In this document: one piece after another, positions 2,279 through 16,661 of the stretch
Numbering within the stretch: the first letter of the stretch is position 1
Layout of the letters: each line of letters begins with the position of its first letter
NCBI GenBank assembly: GCA_027575765.1
Contig: JANBPT010001006.1
Location: forward strand, 1 to 16,661
From: Tieghemiomyces parasiticus
Lineage: Eukaryota > Kickxellomycota > Dimargaritomycetes > Dimargaritales > Dimargaritaceae
DNA: 16,661 nucleotides
Direction: 5' to 3'
Notes under the pieces: generated by a model
The model's database searches: none
What the model saw: the letters and a program-made list of their open reading frames with translations, nothing else
What the model was told of the DNA's origin: nothing
Made by a program: the position numbers and the translations under genes

Positions 2279-5200
2279 ATGGCGACCCCCCAAGCACCGG
2301 TTGCCCTCCCCCACCAGGGGCGTGAGGACTACCCCCGCCGTCCCGGGGCTGGCTACGAACTCCAGGCCTTGCCTACGGGCGCTGAGAAGCCGCCGTACAG
2401 CATCCCAACTACCGCTCAGAGCGCCGACACCCTAACCCCCGGTCATAACGACGGACCTGCATTCGTGGCCCCACTCAAGTAAGTTGGTTGCAGAGCGGTC
2501 CTGGAGCCACGGCAGTGTTGCTGCCGTAGCCAGTGGCCCCCCTTCAGTGACGCGTTTTGGGAACGAACACTGGAAACTCGGTCCATTCAAAGGCCAGAGC
2601 AGAGACTCGATGGCGACCGTCGGATAATTATTTTTTTGCCATCCATCAGCCCTTGCACCCCGCCCAAGCCCAAGGGTCCCTGCTCCCTAGCGTTGATGTT
2701 CTACAACTCCTCTCCTCGTACAATACTAACCTTGGCTGAGCCACTCTACCTACCCCAACTCACCGTGATATTGTACACCTCTTCCTCTCCTACCGCGACA
2801 TCTATCAGAAACGAATCGGACATGGTCGCACAGCCCCGCCAGAGTGCCAAAAAGTCATCTTTCGCGGACCTGGCCAACTTCTGGCGCGGGGGCCGTCGAA
2901 CTCGCCATCACCCATCGTCACCCGAGCTGAGCCAGACCACATCCCGGGCCATACCCGACCCCTCGCCTCTCCAGCACGCTCCGACCTCGATCAGCCAGCA
3001 AATAGATGGGGCCGAGACCCCATCCGGTGCGGCAACGCCGTCCACTCCGACCGGTCGCGGTACTCAGCGTCACCATCGTAAGCAAGGCCGCCACCGCCAG
3101 CCCGGTACCACCTGGTCGTCCACCCTAGCCCGGCTACGTGAGCGCGAGAACACTGGCCGGTCACAGGGCGACGGCCCCGGTTCCTCCACCGAGGAGGGTG
3201 CCGCCAATTCCGGCGAGGTCAATCCGAACCGGGTCCGGTTGCGTCAGAGTCTGCAGCGCGCCGTGCGCAAGGCCAACGCCTTCCGGGTGTCCACTCGTCG
3301 TCGCCGCGACGGCCACCTCAAGAGCGTCAACAACCAAAACACCGCGTTCCCTCTGCTAGGCAGCGCCATGATCGTGCCCATTTACTTTCTGCAGCGTGAC
3401 GAGCACGGATGGAAACCTCCACCCATCATCTGGGAGGCTATGCGCCTGTCGGTGACCGACTCTGACGTGGAACAAGAACAGCAGACCCACTTCACCTTCC
3501 GTATCGAGCTTGAGTACGGCGACGTCAAGTGGGTGGTCTACCGCCGTTTCTCGGAGTTCCTACGCCTACACTACCTCCTGACCCTTCGCTACTATCAGGG
3601 AAAGATCCCCGAGCTACCGAGCCTACCCTCCCAGGTCAACTATGCCTTCGAGGCCGCCAAGATTTACCACAACGACCAGGAACGCACCCGCCGTCGCCGT
3701 GACGCCGCCCAAGGCCGTCGCGCCGCCCTCGAGAACTACCTGTTATCCCTACTGAAGGTGATGAACATGCGTGTGTCGTACGAGCTCTGCGCCTTCCTCG
3801 AACTGAGCGCCGTGTCCATTACCAAGGATCTCGGGTGGAAGGGCAAGGAAGGCTTCCTGGACCAGAAAGTGCAGCGTTTGCACAAGGACGGTTGCTTCGC
3901 CATGTGTCAGCGTAGTCGTTGGCGGTCCAAGTGGCTGTTGGTGCGCGACTCCTTCGTGGCCGTGTGCGACACCCTTGGCGACACTTCCCCCTCCGATGTG
4001 TTTCTGGCCGACCCGAGCTTCGAGGTGCGCCAGTACCATACCCCGCTAGGCCATAACCCGCTGCACCCGTACCGCCTGTCCCTGCTGAACTCCAAGCGGC
4101 GCATCGAGCTACGCGGGGAGAGCGCCAAGCAGATGAACGAGTGGTACGAGAGCCTACAGCACATCAAGCTCAACTCGCCCTGGGCCCAGCCCCACCGCTT
4201 CGAATCCTTCGCCCCGATCCGCGAGAACACACATGCCACCTGGTACGTGGATGGCCAGCAGTACTTCTTTGCCCTGTCCGAGGCCCTACGTCACGCTAAG
4301 GAGACCATCTTCATCGAAGACTGGTGGCTTAGCCCAGATATTTACCTGCGCCGCCCACCTGCCGAGAACGAGGAGTTTCGTCTCGACCGCCTGCTGTACC
4401 GCAAGGCCGAGGAAGGCGTGGTCATCTACATTGTGGTGTACAAGGAGGTCACGGTGTCCCTTCCGCTCAACTCCCTGTGGACCAAGAAGGCACTGCGCAC
4501 ACTGCACCCCAACATTCACGTGCAGCGCCACCCGGACCACCTGCCGGGCGGGACCTTCTACTGGGCTCACCACGAGAAGATCGTGGTGATTGACTCCAAC
4601 GTGGCCTTCATCGGCGGCCTGGATCTCTGCTACGGTCGGTACGACACCCATGCCCACCGCCTCGCCGATTACACTCCGCAGGTACCGCGCCCCGACGGCC
4701 GCGGAAATGAGTGCATCCGGCCCCTCATGTTCCCCGGCCAGGACTTTAACAATGCTCGCATTAAGGACTTTGCCAACGTGGAGAGAGATTTTTTCCCGCT
4801 GATCCCACGCGAGCGCTCCCCGCGCATGCCCTGGCACGACGTGCACATGGGTATGGTGGGGCCCGCCGCCCGCGACGTGGCCCGCCACTTCATCGAGCGG
4901 TGGAACTTTATCAAGTCGAGTAAGGCCCAGCAGCGGTCGTCCCTACCGTACCTCATGCCCAAAGGCGAGTATGTGAGCACCCGCGCCGACTTTGATTTCC
5001 GTGGAACCTGTCGCACTCAGATCCTGCGCAGCAGCGCCCAATGGAGCATGGGTATCCAGCGCGAGCGGTCCATCTTCACCGCCTACGCCGACCTTATCAG
5101 CACCGCCCAGCACTTTGTGTACATTGAGAACCAGTTTTTCATCACCTCGGCCAAAGACGACCCCAGCCACGAGGTCAAAAATCTGGTGGGTAAGGCGCTG

Positions 5201-8200
5201 GTGGACCGAATTGCGCGCGCTCACCACGAGGGCACCAAATTCCGTGCCATTATCATCATCCCGCTTATGCCGGCCTTCGCAGGAGACATCAACGCCGGCA
5301 ACGCCGCCACTCTGCGCCTGGTAGTGTCGTGGCAGTACCAGTCCATTAGTCGCGGGGCACACTCGATTATGGGCCAGCTGCGGGCCCAGGGCGTGCCCAA
5401 CCCCGAAGAGTACATTTCGTTCTACAGTCTCCGCAACTATGACGTAATCAACTGGCGCCCCAATGCCGGGCTCGCCCGGCGTGCCAACGACGTTGCCGCC
5501 GCGCTGCCCACATCGCCCAACCCGGCCGCATCCTCGAAGCCAAGCGCCCCGTCGCCCACTGAGGGCAGCAATGGCCCGGCGTCCCTTGACCCCCAGGTGG
5601 TGCCATCCATCGCTGGTGACGAACCTGTTGAAAATCCGTCCGGCGGACACGGGAAGGGTGACCCGGGTCCGGCTGGCGGGAATGGGTCCGGTGCCGCTGG
5701 TGTGAGCGTGGGACGCAACCCGGTGAAGTTGGGCGGTGAGGTGGCCAACGAAGTCATGAAGGCCGGGAACGTTCCCCCCAATCGCGAGAAGCCGGCGCCT
5801 CGCCAAAAGTCCGGAAAGGTCCCGGTCAACTCCCGCAAGTCTCCCGAGTACCCGCCGACCAGCCTGCCCGATGCTGAAATCTTCGAAATGATGCGCCGGG
5901 AACGTAGCAAACAGATTCGTCACGCCGAGTTTTTGGCCTGGCAGCGCGAGGAGGCCGAGGCGGGGTCCGTTGGTGAAGATCCAGACGGCGGACACCCTCA
6001 CCACCAGCCTCGGCGTACCAAACCGTCCATCGGGGAGATCCTGAAACCGCGCACCCTTGACCCGGCTTGGGTCGAGAAAGTCCTACCGTCCAACCCACCC
6101 ATCTTGGCCGCCCCGCCACCGGAGAAACAGCGCGCCCCACTGCGCTTGGATAATTTTGATCTCGAGTTGCCTGTCAACGATGCCAATGTCGATGAGAAGC
6201 GCCAGGTCGAGTACCTCCGACACATGGCTGACCAGCCCCTGCTGGCCACTCGTGCTCGTGTCCTGGACGATCTTCCGGAGGCCCCTGATGCCCACCTGGT
6301 AGCCCGGCCGTCCGACTACCCGCGCGCCCGTAACACCAACCGGGAACCTGACGCCGTCGATTTGCAGTCGGCCAGCGGCGGTGGCGGCGACCTCACCGAC
6401 GATGAGGAAGACCGTCATCTGAGGAGCAGCGTCACCGGGCGGGCGATGGGTGGTCATCGTCGTCATCTTCATCAACCTCACCACCTCCCCCACGCCCGCA
6501 ACTTCCGTCATCCGCGCTACGGTCGGAACGCCGCGGGTACGGCTGGGCCGGGACTGACCAGCGACAGCGACAATGATTCGTTCGTATCCGCTCGCGACAG
6601 TTACAGTACTTCCAGCAGCAGCAGCAGTGCCAGCAGTAGTGACGAGGCTCGCGAAGAGGCCGACAGTACCGACGAGATTAATGAGGTGGACGCGTCCCAC
6701 CGCCGCTCTCGCCGTAGCCATCCACCGCGCTACCGCCAGAATAGCAAGGACCCCCGCCGTGTCAACCGGCGTAGCTCATCGTTCGGATCCGACTCCCCAG
6801 CACGCGCCTGGCTCCCCGGCCGTCTGGCCGATCACGCCGAGCAACTCTTCCGACCACCTCGCTCCAAGGACCGTACTGACACCCGCCGCCGTAACTACTC
6901 TCGCCCGGAGCTGCAGGACCTGGACCACTACCCGACCCAGTCCAGCCGACCATTGGGGACCCCACCTAACGGGCGTGCTGAGGGCGAGACTGGTCCAACC
7001 GAGGCGGAACCCGAAGTCGCGGAGCCTCCTAGCCCCGGCGCTGAACTGGAAGCCCTACGCCGCAAGTTCCCCATCGAGGACCCTAACCTGGTCACCAGCC
7101 ACGTGTCGTTTGAGGAGATGATGTTTATGCGCGAGAAGTGGCTGGCCGAGAACCCCGACACTGATCTGACGGAGCAGGACATCTTTGGTAACATTGAGAT
7201 GCTCAAGCAGATCGTGACGGAGCAGGTGTACATCCACTGCAAGCTGCTAATAGTGGACGACCGGAGGGTAATCATGGGGTCAGCCAATATTAATGACCGG
7301 TCCATGCTGGGCGACCACGACTCGGAAATTGCCATTCTGGTCGAAGACCAGGCCCAAGTGGAGACCACCATGGACGGCAAACCCTACCAGGCGGCCAAGT
7401 TTGCGCACACCCTGCGGACCTACCTCTGCAAGGAACACCTGGGCCTCCTGTCCGGGACCGATATGGACGCCATCCACAAGGAGGAGCTGGAGATTATCGA
7501 ACGGTACCTCCAGAAGGAGGTCCCTGCTGCCGCGTCGCCGTCCTCTCCGGATCCAGCCCAGCGTCTGTCGGCCGCGTCATCTACCGGGGGTTCTGCCAAA
7601 AGCCCACCATCGGTGGACCACCTGTCGGACTCGTCGTTGCCCAACCAACGGTCCCGCGAGAAGCAGCCGGCCACCGAAGCTGACGAATATGTGGGCGGTC
7701 ACGCGGAGGTTACCGGCGACACGGTTGAGGCCTCCCCGGGAAGCTCGGGTCGGTCACCCGACCGTCTCGGCGGCGATTCGCACCAGATTGGATCCAGTCG
7801 TAGCCGACGAGGCAGTCATGCTCAGTCTACAGCCTCCACGAACGCCACCACAGCCCAGCTGACCGATGGCAAGCCCAGTGCACTGCACATCCCAGGGGCT
7901 ACCGAACAGCTTGATTCGGATACCAAACGATCCCACGACGACCTGGTGGCCGACCCCCTGAGCGACCACTTTTTCCGCGAGAACTGGGTGGCCACCGCCC
8001 GCCAGAACACCCAAACCTACCGCGACGTGTTTAAATGCGTGCCTGACGACACTATCGCCAACTGGGCGGCCTACAAGGGCTTCGTGCCCAACCACGTCCT
8101 CGCCGGTCATGCCATCATGGATGGTCACAGTCATGAAGAGGTCATGGATAAACTCAAGGCGGTCAAGGGCCACCTCGTTGTCTTCCCACTCAACTTCCTC

Positions 8201-8269
8201 CAGGAGGAGAACTTGAGTGCCGCCAGCATGAGCGCTGAATACGTTGTACCGCTCAAGGTGTTTATCTAA
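2279..8269 (+). CDS. PLD1: Phospholipase D (PX-PH-HKD type, Spo14/PLD1 family), two exons, with long insert between the catalytic halves
   Basis: Predicted join(2279..2478, 2809..8269), 1,886 residues. It hydrolyses phosphatidylcholine to phosphatidic acid and choline at Golgi, secretory or plasma membranes; in yeast the family (Spo14) serves secretion and sporulation. Domains: PX at about 278-401 with the RRF phosphoinositide signature at 312-314; PH at about 409-522; first catalytic half with HEKIVVID at 655-662; conserved FVYIENQFF at 836-844; second HKD, HCKLLIVD, at 1543-1550, followed by GSANIN; conserved C-terminal domain at about 1782-1886 (DPLSDHFF, VPNH, VFPLNFLQEENL). The two HKD histidines are 888 residues apart, against roughly 300-430 in typical eukaryotic PLDs, because of a disordered insert at about 952-1487. 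A second linker lies at about 1638-1776. Start choice: the ATG at 2279 opens a 200-nt exon ending in a perfect GTAAGT donor; the alternative ATG at 2822 (MVAQPRQS) would give 1,815 residues. PLD identity is near certain; the N-terminus is less so. Confidence 0.95.
2479..2808 (+). other. Predicted intron 1 of the PLD gene
   Basis: The donor is GTAAGT (2479-2484). The acceptor TATCAG ends at 2808 after a pyrimidine-rich stretch. Exon 1 ends with two bases of a codon and exon 2 starting at 2809 supplies the third (AA|A, Lys), restoring the PLD frame. A perfect TACTAAC lies at 2724-2730. Two other acceptors deserve mention. One ends at 2649 after a T-rich tract, is in frame, and gives a 171-nt intron, close to the 169-nt introns elsewhere in the window. 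The other ends at 2740, is 11 nt past the TACTAAC branch A, and is out of frame. If the intron is retained, translation stops at the TAA inside the donor. Confidence 0.6.
5462..7067 (+). other. Disordered insert inside PLD between the two HKD halves
   Basis: About 535 residues (952-1487) separate the end of the first catalytic half (SFYSLRNYDVINW) from the lead-in to the second. The segment is rich in Pro, Ala, Gly, Arg and Ser. It has a His/Arg-rich patch near 1283-1305, a Ser tract followed by acidic residues near 1332-1352 (with CAG/AGC repeats in the DNA at about 6614-6628), and Arg/Ser-rich stretches. Two parts look less random: LPDAEIFEMMRRERSKQIRH and RLDNFDLELPVNDANVDEKR. The reading frame is unbroken and the third-position G/C preference continues, so this is coding sequence and not an unspliced intron. 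Confidence 0.8.
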
Positions 8270-8676: not shown

Positions 8677-11600
8677 CTACCGCTTGGTGAGCTGCTCTAC
8701 CCGGGTGATCAGCTCGGTAATCTGCACCTTATACATTTCTTTCATGTCGGAAATATCCGCCTGAAGTTCCGCCACCAGCTCAGTCTTCTCACCGAGCAGT
8801 TCCAACACGGTAGCGTGTCGGACGGCGAGATCCTTAGATTCGGTCTCCAAGGTCGTTAGTCGTTGAACGGTAGCCACCAGTTCCTCCGTTTCGGCCGCCT
8901 TAGTGGCCAAAGTTTCCTCGAGTTGAGTTCGCCGGTCACTGACGGTTTGAAGCTGGGTTTGTAAGGTGGCTATTTGGGCTTTGAGCTGCCGCATGGCCGT
9001 CAGACTCCCCGTAACCGAGGCGTCCGGGCCGGTGGTGGGGGTAGGCGTACCACCCAAGGTGCTGACACTGCCTCGACGTGATGAGGCGGGGGATGACGGC
9101 CGACTCGCCTCCAGGCGAGGTGACAACCCGCGGAGAAGCAGGGAGTGATGCGGGGAGGCCGGTAATGATGCTGATGACGACGACGATGGTGGTGGTGGGT
9201 TGACCTCCAAGCCATTAGTCGTGGCGGCGATGGCCGACGTTTCAGGGGCGTTGGTACTATGAATAGCTACGGGGCCGTTGCTAGGCGATAGGGCCGCGGC
9301 CCGAGGCAATCCCGCTTCGGCCTGCTGCGCGGTGAGCTGTCGTTCTAAATCGAGGTTCACCTGGGTGGCGCGAGTTAGTTGTTTAGTCATCCGCTCCACT
9401 TGGGATTCCAGCTCGGTCGCCCGGACCTGCGCCTCCTCGGCTTGGCGGGTCAACTCGCCCCGCTCGTCCTCTAGATCCTCGCTACGTACGCGGGCATCAG
9501 CGAGACTAGCCTCGGCACTTTCGACCTGCTCGGTCAGGTCGGCCACTCGCTGCTCTAAGGCGGAGATTCGTGCGTCGCGGTCGGCAAGCTGCTTCAGGGC
9601 CTTCTTCAGGTTGGTCTGCAGCTTACGTTCCGTCGTGGCGCGCGAGACTGTCTCGGTGTTGAGCCGGTTGGTCAGTTCCTCAATCTGCCGGAAGAGCGGA
9701 GCCGTGTGCTCGTGGATGCTGACGTTATAGGTCTCGCTGCTAGATTCGGCCAGCTCTAGCCGCATCCGGAGCGTGCTGATTTGCCCCAGGAGCGTGGTCT
9801 CTTGGCTGTGGAGGTTGGCGTTGAGCGTGGCGATTTCCTGGTCACGCTCCTCCAGTTTGGCGTCGGCTACCTGGCCTTGCTGTGCCAGAGCGGCCTCAGT
9901 GTGGCGGAGCTTGTTTTCCAGAGCCTGGGCACGCGCGGTCTAAGCAAGCGTTCAGTTGTAATATATATATATATAAAACGGGGAGGGGGAAGAAAGCAGC
10001 ATAGTTAATAATGGTTAGGCCAACGAAAAGAATCAATGGATCACTTAACTACAGATCAATGGCCGCTGGCCACCGCAATCGCCTTTCCCTAATTGGGTTT
10101 TGACTTACTTCCTGCTCCCGAGCCTGACTACTGGCTTCGCGCTGGGCCTGGGCTACCTTGGCCTTCGATGCCTGAATCTCCTTATTAGCTGCCTCAAGGC
10201 TGGCTTGCACCTTTGCCTGGGCCTTCTCGGCGGCTCGCGCTCCGTTCTGCAGTTCCTGGACAGTCCGCTTCAGCTGGTCTACCTGCGTGGCTTGGGCTTT
10301 CAGTTGCTCGATGCGACGGACGTCGGCCTCCTTCTGGGCGCGTAACTTACGTTCCCCTTCATCGACTTTCGCTTGGACCTTCTCGGTCTTGGCCTGGGCC
10401 GCACGTAGTAACCGCTCGCCGTCGGCCACCTCGCCACGCAACCGTTTGATGGTGTTGGATAGCCGCAGTTCTTTGCGGGACAGGTTTCCACCTTCCTCGA
10501 TGAGCTGGGAAAGTTGGGCGTCGCGTTCGGTAAGGGTTTCCTTTTGGCGAGCAAGAACCTTTTCGAGCTTTTGGATGTCCGAGTTGCCCTTGGAGTTGGC
10601 CAGGAGAGCCTCGATGCCCGTTTTGAGGAGGGAAATCTCATCGTTGCGGAGGGCGAGAGTGCTCTCGTGTTCCGCCGCTGCCGCCGTTGTCAGGGCCTGA
10701 CGGTGGTCCAATTGCGCCTTGAGCTGATCAATTTGGCTCGTGAGCTGGCCGTTCTGCTCCTGGGCCACTTCCAGTTGCCGCTCGCGCTGCTCTAAAGTGC
10801 GCTGCAGGACGGCTTCGTCGATATCGAGGGACGCGCGCGGGTCCAGCGGGGTTACTGTTGTCATTGTGGGTGCTGAAGAGCGCTCGACTTCCGTGTCCGA
10901 TTCGGCGGAGGCCGAGAGTTCATGTGTATCGGTGGGGGCGGCCACGCCGGGCGTGGTAAGGACTGTGGGATGGTTTGGCGGTGACGAAGAGGTTGAAGTA
11001 GGCGGGTTCGCCATACTATCCTCACTTCCACGAACCGGGCGGGATGCGGCCGGTTCAGGCGACACGAGTGGGTCAACAAGAGCCTGTTGCAACCGTGGGG
11101 ACGAATAGGTGCGGGACACACGCTCACCGGTGGCGGGTGATGGCCGATCCACTGCTAGGGCACCACTGTCCTCTAGGACGGTAGGCTTGACGATAGAGAG
11201 GGCAGGCGATGGGAGGCGATCCACTGCTGGCGGCTGCTCGGTAGACATGGTCGGGGTGATGTTTGCGGTGGCCGGTGTAGCGTTTGACGAATTTACGGCA
11301 GCATTGAGACGCTCGTCTAGGGACTGACGGCCAGGCCGCGTATCCGCACCACCATCTCTGCCAGTACCGGCGGTGGTAGCAGTGTGCTTGGCCCGGAGAC
11401 TGTCGGTGCGATTTTGGTTAGACCCTAACCGTTGCGATGGGGGCATCGCCGAAGCAGCGACCACCACGTCAGCGGGTAACGGCACGAGCGCTGGTAGGTC
11501 ACTCTCCGATGCCGTAGGTACCGGTTTTGCACTGTTCTGTACACGGGACTGGGGGGTCTGGGCACCAGTAGCGGACGAAGCCCGTGGTTGTCTTGGCGGC

Positions 11601-11821
11601 TGGGCTGCACCCGGGGGCCGGCGGTTCTGACTCGGAGTACGGCGCATGGTATTCGAACTCCGGCCGGGGGTAGAGGCCGGGCCGGATACAGGCCCTGGTT
11701 GGCCATCGCCCGCCGCGGCAATGTCCAGAACTTGGTCGAGGCGGTTCTCGACGGAGTTGATGGCTTGCTTAAAGATGCCACCCCAGGACCGGTTGGCATC
11801 CGGTGCGCCAAAGAAGCTCAT
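8677..11821 (-). CDS. TMF1: TMF family golgin (TATA element modulatory factor 1 / Sgm1-like coiled-coil protein), two exons
   Basis: Predicted complement(join(8677..9939, 10109..11821)), 991 residues. Golgins of this family are long coiled coils on the Golgi that bind Rab6/Ypt6 and tether vesicles. N-terminus: MSFFGAPDANRSWGGIFKQ runs into an amphipathic helix ending ENRLDQVLDI, very like the start of animal TMF1. Residues 36-325 are Ser/Pro/Thr-rich and disordered. Coiled coil starts near 328. The TMF_DNA_bd-type segment lies near 400-480 with the diagnostic EEGGNLSRKELRLSNTIKRL. A TAPLFRQIEEL motif, also conserved in TMF1, lies near 655. A Ser/Pro linker lies at about 760-880. The C-terminal TMF_TATA_bd-type Rab6-binding coil occupies about 885-991 (VLELLGEKTELVAELQADIS, then KEMYKVQI). 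The family identification is firm. The start at 11821 rests on the match of the first residues to TMF1; the frame is open further upstream to 12124, but that extension has no family features and looks like leader. Confidence 0.93.
9940..10108 (-). other. Intron of TMF1, containing an AT dinucleotide run
   Basis: 169 nt. On the minus strand the donor is GAA|GTAAGT (exon 1 ends at 10109) and the acceptor is CTTGCTTAG| (exon 2 starts at 9939). Both exons meet at a codon boundary and the coiled-coil heptads continue across the join. CTAAC at 10018-10014 is a good branch site. A pure alternating AT run occupies 9961-9975, between branch site and acceptor. Confidence 0.85.
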
Positions 11822-13717
11822 GGCGTAGAATGTGAAAGCAGTGGTAATAAAGGCTAATGCGGGAGGGGATGAAGAAGGGGTGGTGATGGAAAAAGGGGCG
11901 GGGGGTATAGAGCGTTCGTGGTGGTTGAGTGGACAAAGGAAAGGGATGGCCGGGGCGGGACGTGTCGTGTAACTGGCGATGGGGCGAGAATAAACGTGAC
12001 GGGCGCCAGCTATCAAAGGAGGAACCGGAGTGGCGAAAGGAGTAACACGGGGCACCGTCACGGTCGAGAAGTAAGTCCGATGCCCTTGCCGTACTGTCGG
12101 CCTAATTATGGCGCACTTTTGCACGGGTCGGTTTCGGAACGTGCGCTGCGTGGAGTGTCCGGCGAGCTGCTGAACGGTACCGCTGAAGCTTCCCGCCGCA
12201 GGAGGAAGTCACTTGGTCTTCATCCGTATTAGGACCCGTAGCTCAGCTCCCCGTTGCTCCAGCAGGCACATGATACCCCTAGCCCATGTCTCTGGGCATG
12301 TCTAATGGTTTGGCCTACCCCCCCCCCCTCCCACGTTAAACAAATAGTATATTTGGCCATGTTTGATTAACGTACGCCATATGAAAGCACATCAATGACA
12401 GCCTGAGCTGCCTAGCGACATCCATCTGGAAGAACTATGGTCGGCCCTTGCTGAAAATGGGGGTACACTATCCGGCTTCTACCCATCAAGGAACCGGGCT
12501 CCCAGTCAGGACTACGCAATGTCAGCGATGACTTAGGACCGACGTGCAAAACCCGGCGGCCAGGTCTGGGATACTAAACCACTTCGGTCATTCGGATGTA
12601 TCCATAGGAGGGTAGCATCTATACCGCCTTTCCCGCGCGCGGTTCACGCAGGGGTATGGCATCAGGCTAGAGTCATTCCGCACTAGGAAGTGCCTCAGTA
12701 CATGGCTGGGCAATACTCATTCTATTCTTATTCGATATAATTAACACACTCTGCATCGTGACCAGCAGGTTGTGTTAAACTGGTAGGGCGCACACTCATC
12801 TCAACAAAAAATAAAGAAAAACTGCATGAATGGCAATGCCTAAGGACCCCAAAGCAGGATTCTGATAAGTATGCGGGACCGGGTCATGGTGCTATTCAGA
12901 GGTCAACGGGACTCAACCGTGTGGCACTGCAGTACGATTGATACGTCGGTGCGACGCCAGCTAGAAGGGACAGCCCTTAACCCAGTGAATATAACAGGGT
13001 TCACCTTTCCGAGGTTTCATAGTTGGTCGTGCTGTCGACGCACTTCATTCCTTGGTTACTGCGGCTGCTGGTAGTTTTGGCACAGCTCACACTGTTTGAT
13101 ATCGGCCGTTCCGTACCCGGCCGCACTATCTCCCCCCTCCCATAGAAGCTGGACCCAGCCGCGTGGCCCACGGTTTCCTGCACGCACACATTCCTTCTGG
13201 CAGTGCCAAGAAATGTGTGTGACCTGACCCCGGCGCCCATCTGTTCGTATCCGTTAGCGCCGGGCTTTGCGGAATTCACGGTGATACAAGGGATCCAGCT
13301 ACTGACTATCCGGAGGTTTCGTCCAGTGGCCATAGGTTCTCTTATAACCGATAGCCAGATGGGCCCGATGGTTGACCATTGTAATGGACCTGGCAAATTA
13401 CTCTGATATCTCTCACCTCGGGTGCTGGGCGCGTACGTCATTGCTGGCCCACCGCCACCCCCATCCCTCATCTCCTCCACGCGTCACTTGCCCTTCCTCT
13501 CTTCACATATCCCTCCCTCCCAGCCCCACTTCATTTCCCCGCTGAAACCATGAGTTCCCCCCCCCTTTCTCCACACATGTTTATCCCGCCTTCCCCACGG
13601 GTGACCGACACACTTGCATGACGCGGTGAGCACCTCTCCTGCCTCTCCCACCCTGACGGATATTTGCGTCCGTCGGCCTGACGCCCCCGCCTCCCGGTCC
13701 GCGAGTTCACCAAAGAG
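11822..13717. other. Intergenic region between TMF1 and the 13884 gene; no gene supported
   Basis: The first 60-100 nt (minus strand) are a pyrimidine-rich TMF1 leader. From about 12125 onward stops are frequent in all frames, base composition is even, and G/C-ending codons are not favoured. The longest frame (159 codons, minus, 13001-13480) shows no domain pattern. Eleven C in a row lie at 12318-12328. From about 13440 the plus strand becomes CT-rich and leads into the TATA box of the next gene. I find no rRNA, tRNA or transposon ends. Confidence 0.5.
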
Positions 13718-15946: not shown

Positions 15947-16661
15947 TCACATCTCCAGCTCGAAGACGCCCGTGTGCTTGTCTATTCAAAGGGTAGGTCG
16001 AAGTAAGGGTGAAATAAAAAAGAGTTAGTACCATTGCCAATCCCAGTGGTGGGCTCGTAGCACCAGGATTACGAACGAAACAAATACGTAAGGACAAAGC
16101 GAGGCCCACGTGATCGGCAGCCGATGACCGGTTCGGAGGTTCCAACTTACCTCGGTCGTTACCGTGAGTCTCATTATCGGCCTCGTCTTTCTCCTCGTCC
16201 TCATCTTCCTCCTTGAGGCTCATGCTCATCATTTTAGGGATAGGGTCGGGGCCGCCCAAGGTGTTGAGGCCCAGACTAGGGATCGATGTCTTGTTGAGCG
16301 GGGTGTTGGGCGGCGCCCGGAAGCCGGGCTGCTGCGAACCGACCGACGAACCCAATACCGACCCGCTCTTGCCATCGTCCGTCCGGCCACCGCGGTTGTG
16401 GGGCACCTGCAGGGTCTGGGGCTGAGCGGTGGACGAGGTCACGGTCGAGCCAGTGGAGGCGGGCATGGTGTGCGCGAGGGTCGATTGGCTACCAGGACGT
16501 AGTCCGTCCGCCGAAACTTCGGCACCCGGCCGGGCCACGTTGCGGGCGCGGAAATTGTAGCCTAGGGGGGCGTTTACACCGGGTACGGACCGCATGTGTG
16601 ATGGGGCATTTTGGGAGAGCGGGGAGTGGCTCAGCGCCAGCAGCTGGTCCGATCGGTAGAC
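15947..16661 (-). CDS. Putative eIF4E-binding protein (4E-BP-like translation repressor), C-terminal 181 residues; 5' end outside window
   Basis: Predicted complement(join(15947..15981, 16151..>16661)). The frame is open to the window edge. The first visible residues, VYRSDQLLALSHSPLSQ, hold a canonical eIF4E-binding motif YxxxxL-hydrophobic (16658-16638). Ser-Pro follows at Tyr+11, and Val-Pro-Gly-Val-Asn has its Pro at Tyr+25. In human 4E-BP1 the same elements are Tyr54, Ser65-Pro66 (a TOR-pathway phosphosite) and the second eIF4E contact IPGVT with Pro79: identical spacing with no gap. After the last intron the protein ends DKHTGVFELEM, and FELEM resembles the TOS motif FEMDI that ends 4E-BP1. 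Between lie a disordered Ser/Thr/Pro/Gly/Gln linker with Thr-Pro sites and an acidic run (KEEDEDEEKDEADN), making it longer than the roughly 65 residues after Tyr54 in human. Known role of the family: when unphosphorylated it competes with eIF4G for eIF4E and blocks cap-dependent initiation. Another eIF4E-binding class (4E-T or Eap1-like) is the main alternative. Confidence 0.75.
15982..16150 (-). other. Last intron of the putative 4E-BP gene
   Basis: 169 nt. On the minus strand the donor is GAG|GTAAGT (exon ends at 16151), a perfect TACTAAC branch site lies at 16030-16024, then a pyrimidine-rich tract and the acceptor GAATAG ending at 15982, 43 nt past the branch A. The donor leaves one codon base and the next exon supplies AC (Asp). 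All ten codons after the junction (AAG to ATG) end in G or C before TGA at 15949-15947, matching the coding bias of the window. A second AG at 15978-15977 would instead give the other open frame. Confidence 0.75.

Follow-up and report, generated by a model that had tools for sequence, protein, structure and literature searches.

The right edge of a contig from Tieghemiomyces parasiticus (Dimargaritales) raises the question of whether a fungus can carry a true 4E-BP, and whether such a protein would answer to TORC1. The stretch of DNA analysed here (the window) is the entire contig of 16,661 bp, with no sequence beyond position 16661. Its minus strand runs off the right edge inside the gene in question, where the frame reads VYRSDQLLALSHSPLSQNAPSHMRSVPGV... 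We propose, with a probability of about 87%, that the gene at this edge is that of a fungal 4E-BP, of which the window holds the C-terminal part. The predicted mode of action of the protein is to bind eIF4E via YRSDQLL and Pro-Gly-Val (PGV), to reach TORC1 via the C-terminal FELEM, and to release eIF4E on likely phosphorylation by TORC1. At the level of sequence, this reading is built on homology, motif spacing, a C-terminal TOS consensus, an architecture that recurs across early-branching fungi, and the presence of eIF4E and Raptor genes in the same genome.

The part of the gene that lies within the window consists of two minus-strand exons. The first (16151..16661) is open at the contig end and lacks the N-terminal part of the protein. 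A 169-bp intron (15982..16150) follows; its donor is GTAAGT (at 16150), its branch site TACTAAC (16024-16030) and its acceptor TAG (before 15981). The final exon (15947..15981) ends in ...DKHTGVFELEM and a stop codon (15947-15949). Without splicing, the frame continues into non-coding sequence; the spliced fragment is 181 aa long. The original prediction, which had placed the C-terminal part of a 4E-BP at the window edge, was confirmed for the motifs but had missed the last exon behind the intron. The gene is already in the database, solely as a truncated hypothetical protein (P0001, IWQ60_010478, 159 aa), whose splice and spliced end are identical to those of the window gene. Since this model begins at a Met downstream of the Ser-Pro site described below, it contains no eIF4E motif and has no Pfam match. 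Elsewhere in the window, domain scans revealed a PX-domain phospholipase D on the plus strand (2483-8266) and two minus-strand frames (8680-9939 and 10052-12208) with TMF_TATA_bd and TMF_DNA_bd domains. The two frames are likely parts of one gene, presumably a TMF1/Sgm1-type golgin.

Three elements of animal 4E-BP1 had been reported at this edge, and all three were found where they had been placed, on the minus strand: the canonical eIF4E-binding motif YX4L-hydrophobic, as YRSDQLL (16638..16658); a Ser-Pro at Tyr+11 (16620..16625), which we take to be the place of human Ser65-Pro66; and a PGV at Tyr+25 (16575..16583). The PGV is a predicted non-canonical eIF4E contact, a role described for 79-PGV of 4E-BP1 in passages of PMC8558276. 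Among all six reading frames, the spacing of Tyr, Ser-Pro and PGV occurs once in the window, and it is absent from each of 1000 dinucleotide-preserving shuffles of it (0/1000 with a relaxed pattern as well), in agreement with the earlier view that such matching distances are hardly due to chance. The window protein also departs from its relatives in several places. Asn-Ala stands where Thr70-Pro71, a common though not a defining site of the family, would be expected (Thr-Pro in Dimargaris), Asn takes the place of Thr82, and the third motif position holds Ser in place of the Arg or Lys of most relatives. Two Ser/Thr-Pro sites are visible in the fragment, namely the Ser-Pro at Tyr+11 and a Thr-Pro in the linker block RAPPNTPLNK (16290..16319, minus strand), which is common to Dimargaris and Dispira. 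In the Dimargaritales proteins (P0002, P0003, P0004, P0005 and P0041) this block is conserved as R[AV]PPNTPxNK, with PK and then a Met-rich stretch behind it; it was not seen in the remaining fungal alignment rows and is possibly a further proline-directed phosphosite.

Profile searches pointed to the 4E-BP family. The Pfam eIF_4EBP profile (PF05456) scored 19.8 bits on the spliced fragment (E 0.00077), under the cut-off of 24, with the match covering profile positions 50-81 and the earlier part lying off the contig; with an E limit of 10, Pfam listed only this family and a weak KAR9 match. A profile made solely from 26 animal 4E-BPs gave 18.8 bits on the 181-aa fragment; among 20,000 residue-shuffled versions of this protein, of which 18,394 were scored, the highest value was 13.8. 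A chance motif is not supported by either the spacing shuffles or the residue shuffles. Searching the organism's own genome with PF05456 yielded no match and was uninformative, since its 14 controls did not yield any match either.

With the spliced fragment as query, two proteins were found: its own model P0001 and P0002 of Dimargaris cristalligena, a full-length protein of 215 aa that aligned over the entire fragment (E 1.2e-21). P0002 matches Pfam eIF_4EBP at 6.2e-26 (91 bits) and the human 4E-BP1 chains in the PDB at 4e-17, and it has a TTPGGT block, the eIF4E motif, IPGVT and FELEM; judging from these features, it is a complete 4E-BP. A query with residues 1-85 of P0002 retrieved 15 proteins, and a profile from six fungal members gave 1248 matches. 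The best 120 of these include at least 41 fungal relatives, as recognised by name; the others were animal or nameless, and some names are incomplete. Besides Dimargaris and Dispira, these relatives come from Conidiobolus, Neoconidiobolus, Entomophthora, Basidiobolus, Thamnocephalis, an incompletely named "Syncepha...", the Mortierella group, the Mucorales (Syncephalastrum, Lichtheimia, Rhizomucor), Gigaspora, and the chytrids Thoreauomyces, Phlyctochytrium, Gaertneriomyces, Spizellomyces, Geranomyces and Rhizophlyctis, with the genera assigned to orders as we presume them to belong.

The architecture is largely constant among these 41 relatives (P0001 of the window itself is not counted). Both the double TTP block (TTPGGT/STTPGGT, T37/T46) and the YX4L-hydrophobic motif are present in 40/41, the exception in each case being the partial P0041. 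The Tyr is included in 40 of them. Ser-Pro stands at Tyr+11 in 37 of these 40 (the exceptions are three Mucorales with SE, SD and SQ), and [PA]G[VI] at Tyr+25 in 38 (26 PG and 12 AG; the exceptions are P0045 and the aberrant P0047). At the place of the RAIP motif we found ARHIP in Dimargaris, SRAIP in Linnemannia, ARDIP in Thamnocephalis and APVAVRR in chytrids. The relatives are short, measuring 109-152 aa outside the Dimargaritales and 183-215 aa inside, ranges that omit partial and aberrant models save two Dispira models with flawed ends. Of 11 that were scanned, 10 contain eIF_4EBP far above the cut-off and no other domain; the eleventh, P0041, starts after the motif and has no domain match. 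A very long protein, additional domains or unconserved spacing would each have spoken against a 4E-BP; the relatives are short, those scanned and long enough to cover the motif show no additional domain, and the spacing is kept in most of them. The candidate is thus supported by the Dimargaris relative, the profiles and the conserved spacing; the profile hit suggested as a check was obtained above the cut-off for full-length relatives, with the fragment itself remaining under it.

Some lineages showed variations of their own. The three Mucorales proteins (P0071 of Syncephalastrum, P0090 of Lichtheimia and P0105 of Rhizomucor) have AGV for PGV, SE, SD or SQ where Ser-Pro would stand, and the tails FEMEA, FDMDD and FDMEE, perhaps reflecting an altered mode of control. 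Mortierella-type 4E-BPs (P0023-P0040) mostly have AGV as well, and Actinomortierella P0029 retains PGV. The Dispira models P0004 and P0005 end in GDKGKF..., where the window reads NDRGKLE; they seem to run on into an intron that matches the window intron in position and phase, and their last exon is probably mis-annotated.

The last exon brings in the element by which the protein may be connected to TORC1. The human form of the TOS motif is FEMDI, and animal TOS motifs have Asp as residue 4, where the tail of the window protein, FELEM (15950..15964, minus strand), has Glu. The published consensus is given as F-acidic-hydrophobic-acidic-hydrophobic in passages of PMC6325617 and as F-X-hydrophobic-acidic-hydrophobic in passages of PMC11348030; FELEM satisfies both forms. 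A strict TOS pentapeptide immediately before a stop codon appeared in 5 cases in total across the six frames of 1000 shuffled windows. Dimargaris shares 10 of the final 11 residues with the window protein. Among the fungal relatives in the matches listed, 31/41 close with a strict TOS or have a single residue after it (counting one FEMEA, with Ala taken as hydrophobic), and two more have the looser forms FHMEL and FAMDM. The remainder comprises the two Mucorales tails FDMDD and FDMEE, two partial models that break off at FELE, and four proteins with no usable end (the partial P0034, the aberrant P0047 and two Dispira models). The TOS consensus is retained from chytrids to Dimargaritales, while the linker varies freely.

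The main phosphosites would sit in the N-terminal half, beyond the contig end at 16661. A search of the organism's own assembly returned no credible piece of this half: three candidates (on C925, C844 and C69; E 0.038, 0.048 and 1.0) were taken as chance, as none of them lies at a contig end and those on C925 and C844 carry internal stops.

The predicted partners of the protein are encoded in the same genome. A canonical eIF4E gene with two exons was found on contig C961, with a like-scoring locus on C2. Its contact residues were mapped by eye, with what we take to be the human eIF4E sequence as reference. The dorsal and lateral contacts are those named in the text of PMC8558276, which describes Glu132 as conserved in metazoans. 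By this mapping, the fungal eIF4E keeps the dorsal equivalents His37-Pro38-Leu39, Val69, Trp73 and Leu131 and the lateral equivalents Phe47, Ile63 and Ile79, and has His rather than Glu at position 132. A pairing of this position with motif position 3 was considered and dropped; His is likewise present in 6fbz, the closest solved eIF4E, and yeast eIF4E has Arg, so that the difference looks general among fungi. For Raptor, C653 carries an open frame of 1768 aa, and C954 a second locus with a similar score. The TOS groove of Raptor is made by its caspase-like and solenoid parts, according to passages of PMC7464330; in the fungal protein these parts match those of solved Raptors (about 1e-165 for the human ones).

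Like-scoring contig pairs were seen for the Raptor, eIF4E-family and kinase loci of this assembly (C653/C954, C961/C2, C898/C480, C1173/C1258 and C587/C689 of G000), as if two haplotypes had been kept apart; the 4E-BP fragment, in contrast, occurs once. Among the five kinase regions examined, a minus-strand frame on C878 (L028, G000:C878:7400-10200) encodes an S6K-like AGC kinase, with S6K1 as the best solved relative (2.9e-78) and AKT2 close to it (8.4e-78). From its assumed start Met it begins MNHHVFQLEEDLP, which includes a TOS-like FQLEE whose last residue is acidic; FVMDE of PRAS40 likewise ends in an acidic residue. Such a TOS-like start was found in this one of the three readable kinase frames.

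To place the fungal proteins relative to those of animals, we used a tree of the N-terminal core (82 columns), with 28 of the 41 fungal relatives, the window and 26 animals chosen by name from the listed matches; the 13 fungal rows dropped were near-duplicate, partial or aberrant. One branch parts all fungi from all animals (support 100/100, and present in each of the 200 bootstrap trees). With its 33 residues, the window row groups with Dimargaris and Dispira (96/88); no other end branch is as long as its own (1.34). Since the columns are few and the bootstrap had not settled, we rely on the split between fungi and animals only. This split speaks against contamination and recent transfer, and it fits descent from a common ancestor, without dating the origin. 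Of the two origins that had been put forward, a shared ancestor fits the split, and an independent gain is not needed, since the whole architecture is shared.

The evidence above can be weighed against four other readings. The one with most weight, improbable though we consider it, holds that the protein is a true 4E-BP homolog that binds eIF4E under the control of another kinase, with a tail not meant for Raptor. In line with this, no TOS had been reported from fungi up to 2017 according to a passage of PMC5745459, the visible part contains just two Ser/Thr-Pro sites, and the Mucorales have SE, SD or SQ for Ser-Pro. However, the TOS consensus was kept from chytrids to Dimargaritales next to a freely changing linker, and the genome encodes a Raptor with both caspase-like and solenoid parts. 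Somewhat less probable still is that the T. parasiticus copy, unlike those of its relatives, is decaying or N-terminally truncated and no longer a working TORC1-controlled brake. The long branch, the loss of Thr70-Pro and of the basic residue at motif position 3, the N-terminal half not found in the assembly and the single copy next to paired Raptor and eIF4E loci could all be read in this way. Yet the contig merely stops inside the gene, the frame is open with intact splice sites, both eIF4E-contact motifs are present, and the tail and linker block are almost identical to those of Dimargaris.

Two readings deny the protein its place among inherited fungal 4E-BPs, and we regard both as very unlikely. 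Convergence, by which an unrelated Caf20/Eap1-type eIF4E-binder or a chance motif would match the spacing, draws on the shortness of the fragment, its score under the Pfam cut-off and the weak second match to KAR9; it is opposed by the 0/1000 shuffles, by a full-length relative that is clearly eIF_4EBP, and by the description in passages of PMC7139794 of p20/Caf20 as confined to Saccharomycotina and without homology to 4E-BPs beyond the motif. Even less credible is an animal-derived gene, through assembly contamination or recent transfer; the family is indeed best known from animals, but the 29 fungal rows (window included) stand on one side of the branch against 26 animals in all 200 bootstraps, the window groups with Dimargaris and Dispira, and its closest relative comes from the Dimargaritales.

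Taking the window gene as a TORC1-controlled 4E-BP, the switch would, by analogy with animals, operate as follows. 4E-BPs are disordered when alone. When TORC1 is quiet, the unphosphorylated protein would place its YRSDQLL helix on the dorsal face of eIF4E and its PGV on the lateral face, keeping eIF4G off eIF4E, and cap-dependent translation would drop. When TORC1 is active, Raptor would hold the FELEM tail, and phosphorylation of the Ser/Thr-Pro sites would free eIF4E.

The window gene resembles animal 4E-BP1/2/3 and Drosophila Thor (PF05456) in the YX4L-hydrophobic motif, the Ser-Pro at Tyr+11 and the C-terminal TOS, and its full-length fungal relatives share the family profile and the double TTP block with animal 4E-BPs; its PGV at Tyr+25 is as in 4E-BP1 and not as in Thor. 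Unlike animal 4E-BPs, the Dimargaritales proteins have a linker several dozen residues longer, with an extra Thr-Pro block, and the window protein has Glu at position 4 of its tail and no Thr70-Pro. The assumption that 4E-BPs are described from animals alone did not hold: phosphorylation of a Dictyostelium 4E-BP, detected with a T37/T46 phospho-antibody, is an established mTORC1 read-out in passages of PMC6977259 and PMC11379915, a likeness drawn here from published use and not from sequence. In addition, many fungal relatives (from Conidiobolus, Basidiobolus, Mortierella, Gigaspora and others) had been automatically named eIF4E-binding proteins, so that the family label itself is not new in fungi. 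These share family and architecture with the window gene, which, unlike them, appears in the database as a hypothetical protein of 159 aa that lacks the eIF4E motif. Yeast Caf20 (p20) and Eap1, which compete for eIF4E through a YX4L-hydrophobic motif, had been called unrelated. Passages of PMC7139794 and PMC8558276 agree with this, giving them no homology beyond the motif and, as the non-canonical part, a helix in place of PGV. Our search of the openly licensed literature, in the text accessible there, found no paper describing a fungal 4E-BP of the PF05456 family, which a closed paper may report; in the accessible text of PMC11791286, which deals with eIF4E across 538 fungal species, 4E-BP is mentioned a single time, in the title of a reference. 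As far as these searches show, the identity of this gene and the TOS tails of fungal 4E-BPs are new.

The window gene is therefore a divergent, mis-annotated member of a 4E-BP family that extends across many early-branching fungi, and would have been inherited from an ancestor that fungi and animals had in common. The full versions in early-branching fungi suggest that this growth switch probably predates the divergence of fungi and animals. No name recognisable as Dikarya was present among the best 120 of 1248 matches, where several names are incomplete or missing. We consider it probable that a complete TORC1-TOS-4E-BP-eIF4E switch existed in that ancestor, that chytrids, zygomycete-type fungi and Gigaspora kept it, and that it disappeared on the line to Dikarya, with yeasts substituting Caf20/Eap1; the TOS docking code would then not be an animal invention, and the S6 kinase of the same fungus may carry it too. 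The interest of the locus thus lies in the age of the link between TORC1, TOS and 4E-BP, and in its likely loss in yeasts. If fungal 4E-BPs work as predicted, yeast would be the exception and its lack of a 4E-BP a loss, and early-branching fungi would become models for the animal-type link between TORC1 and translation.
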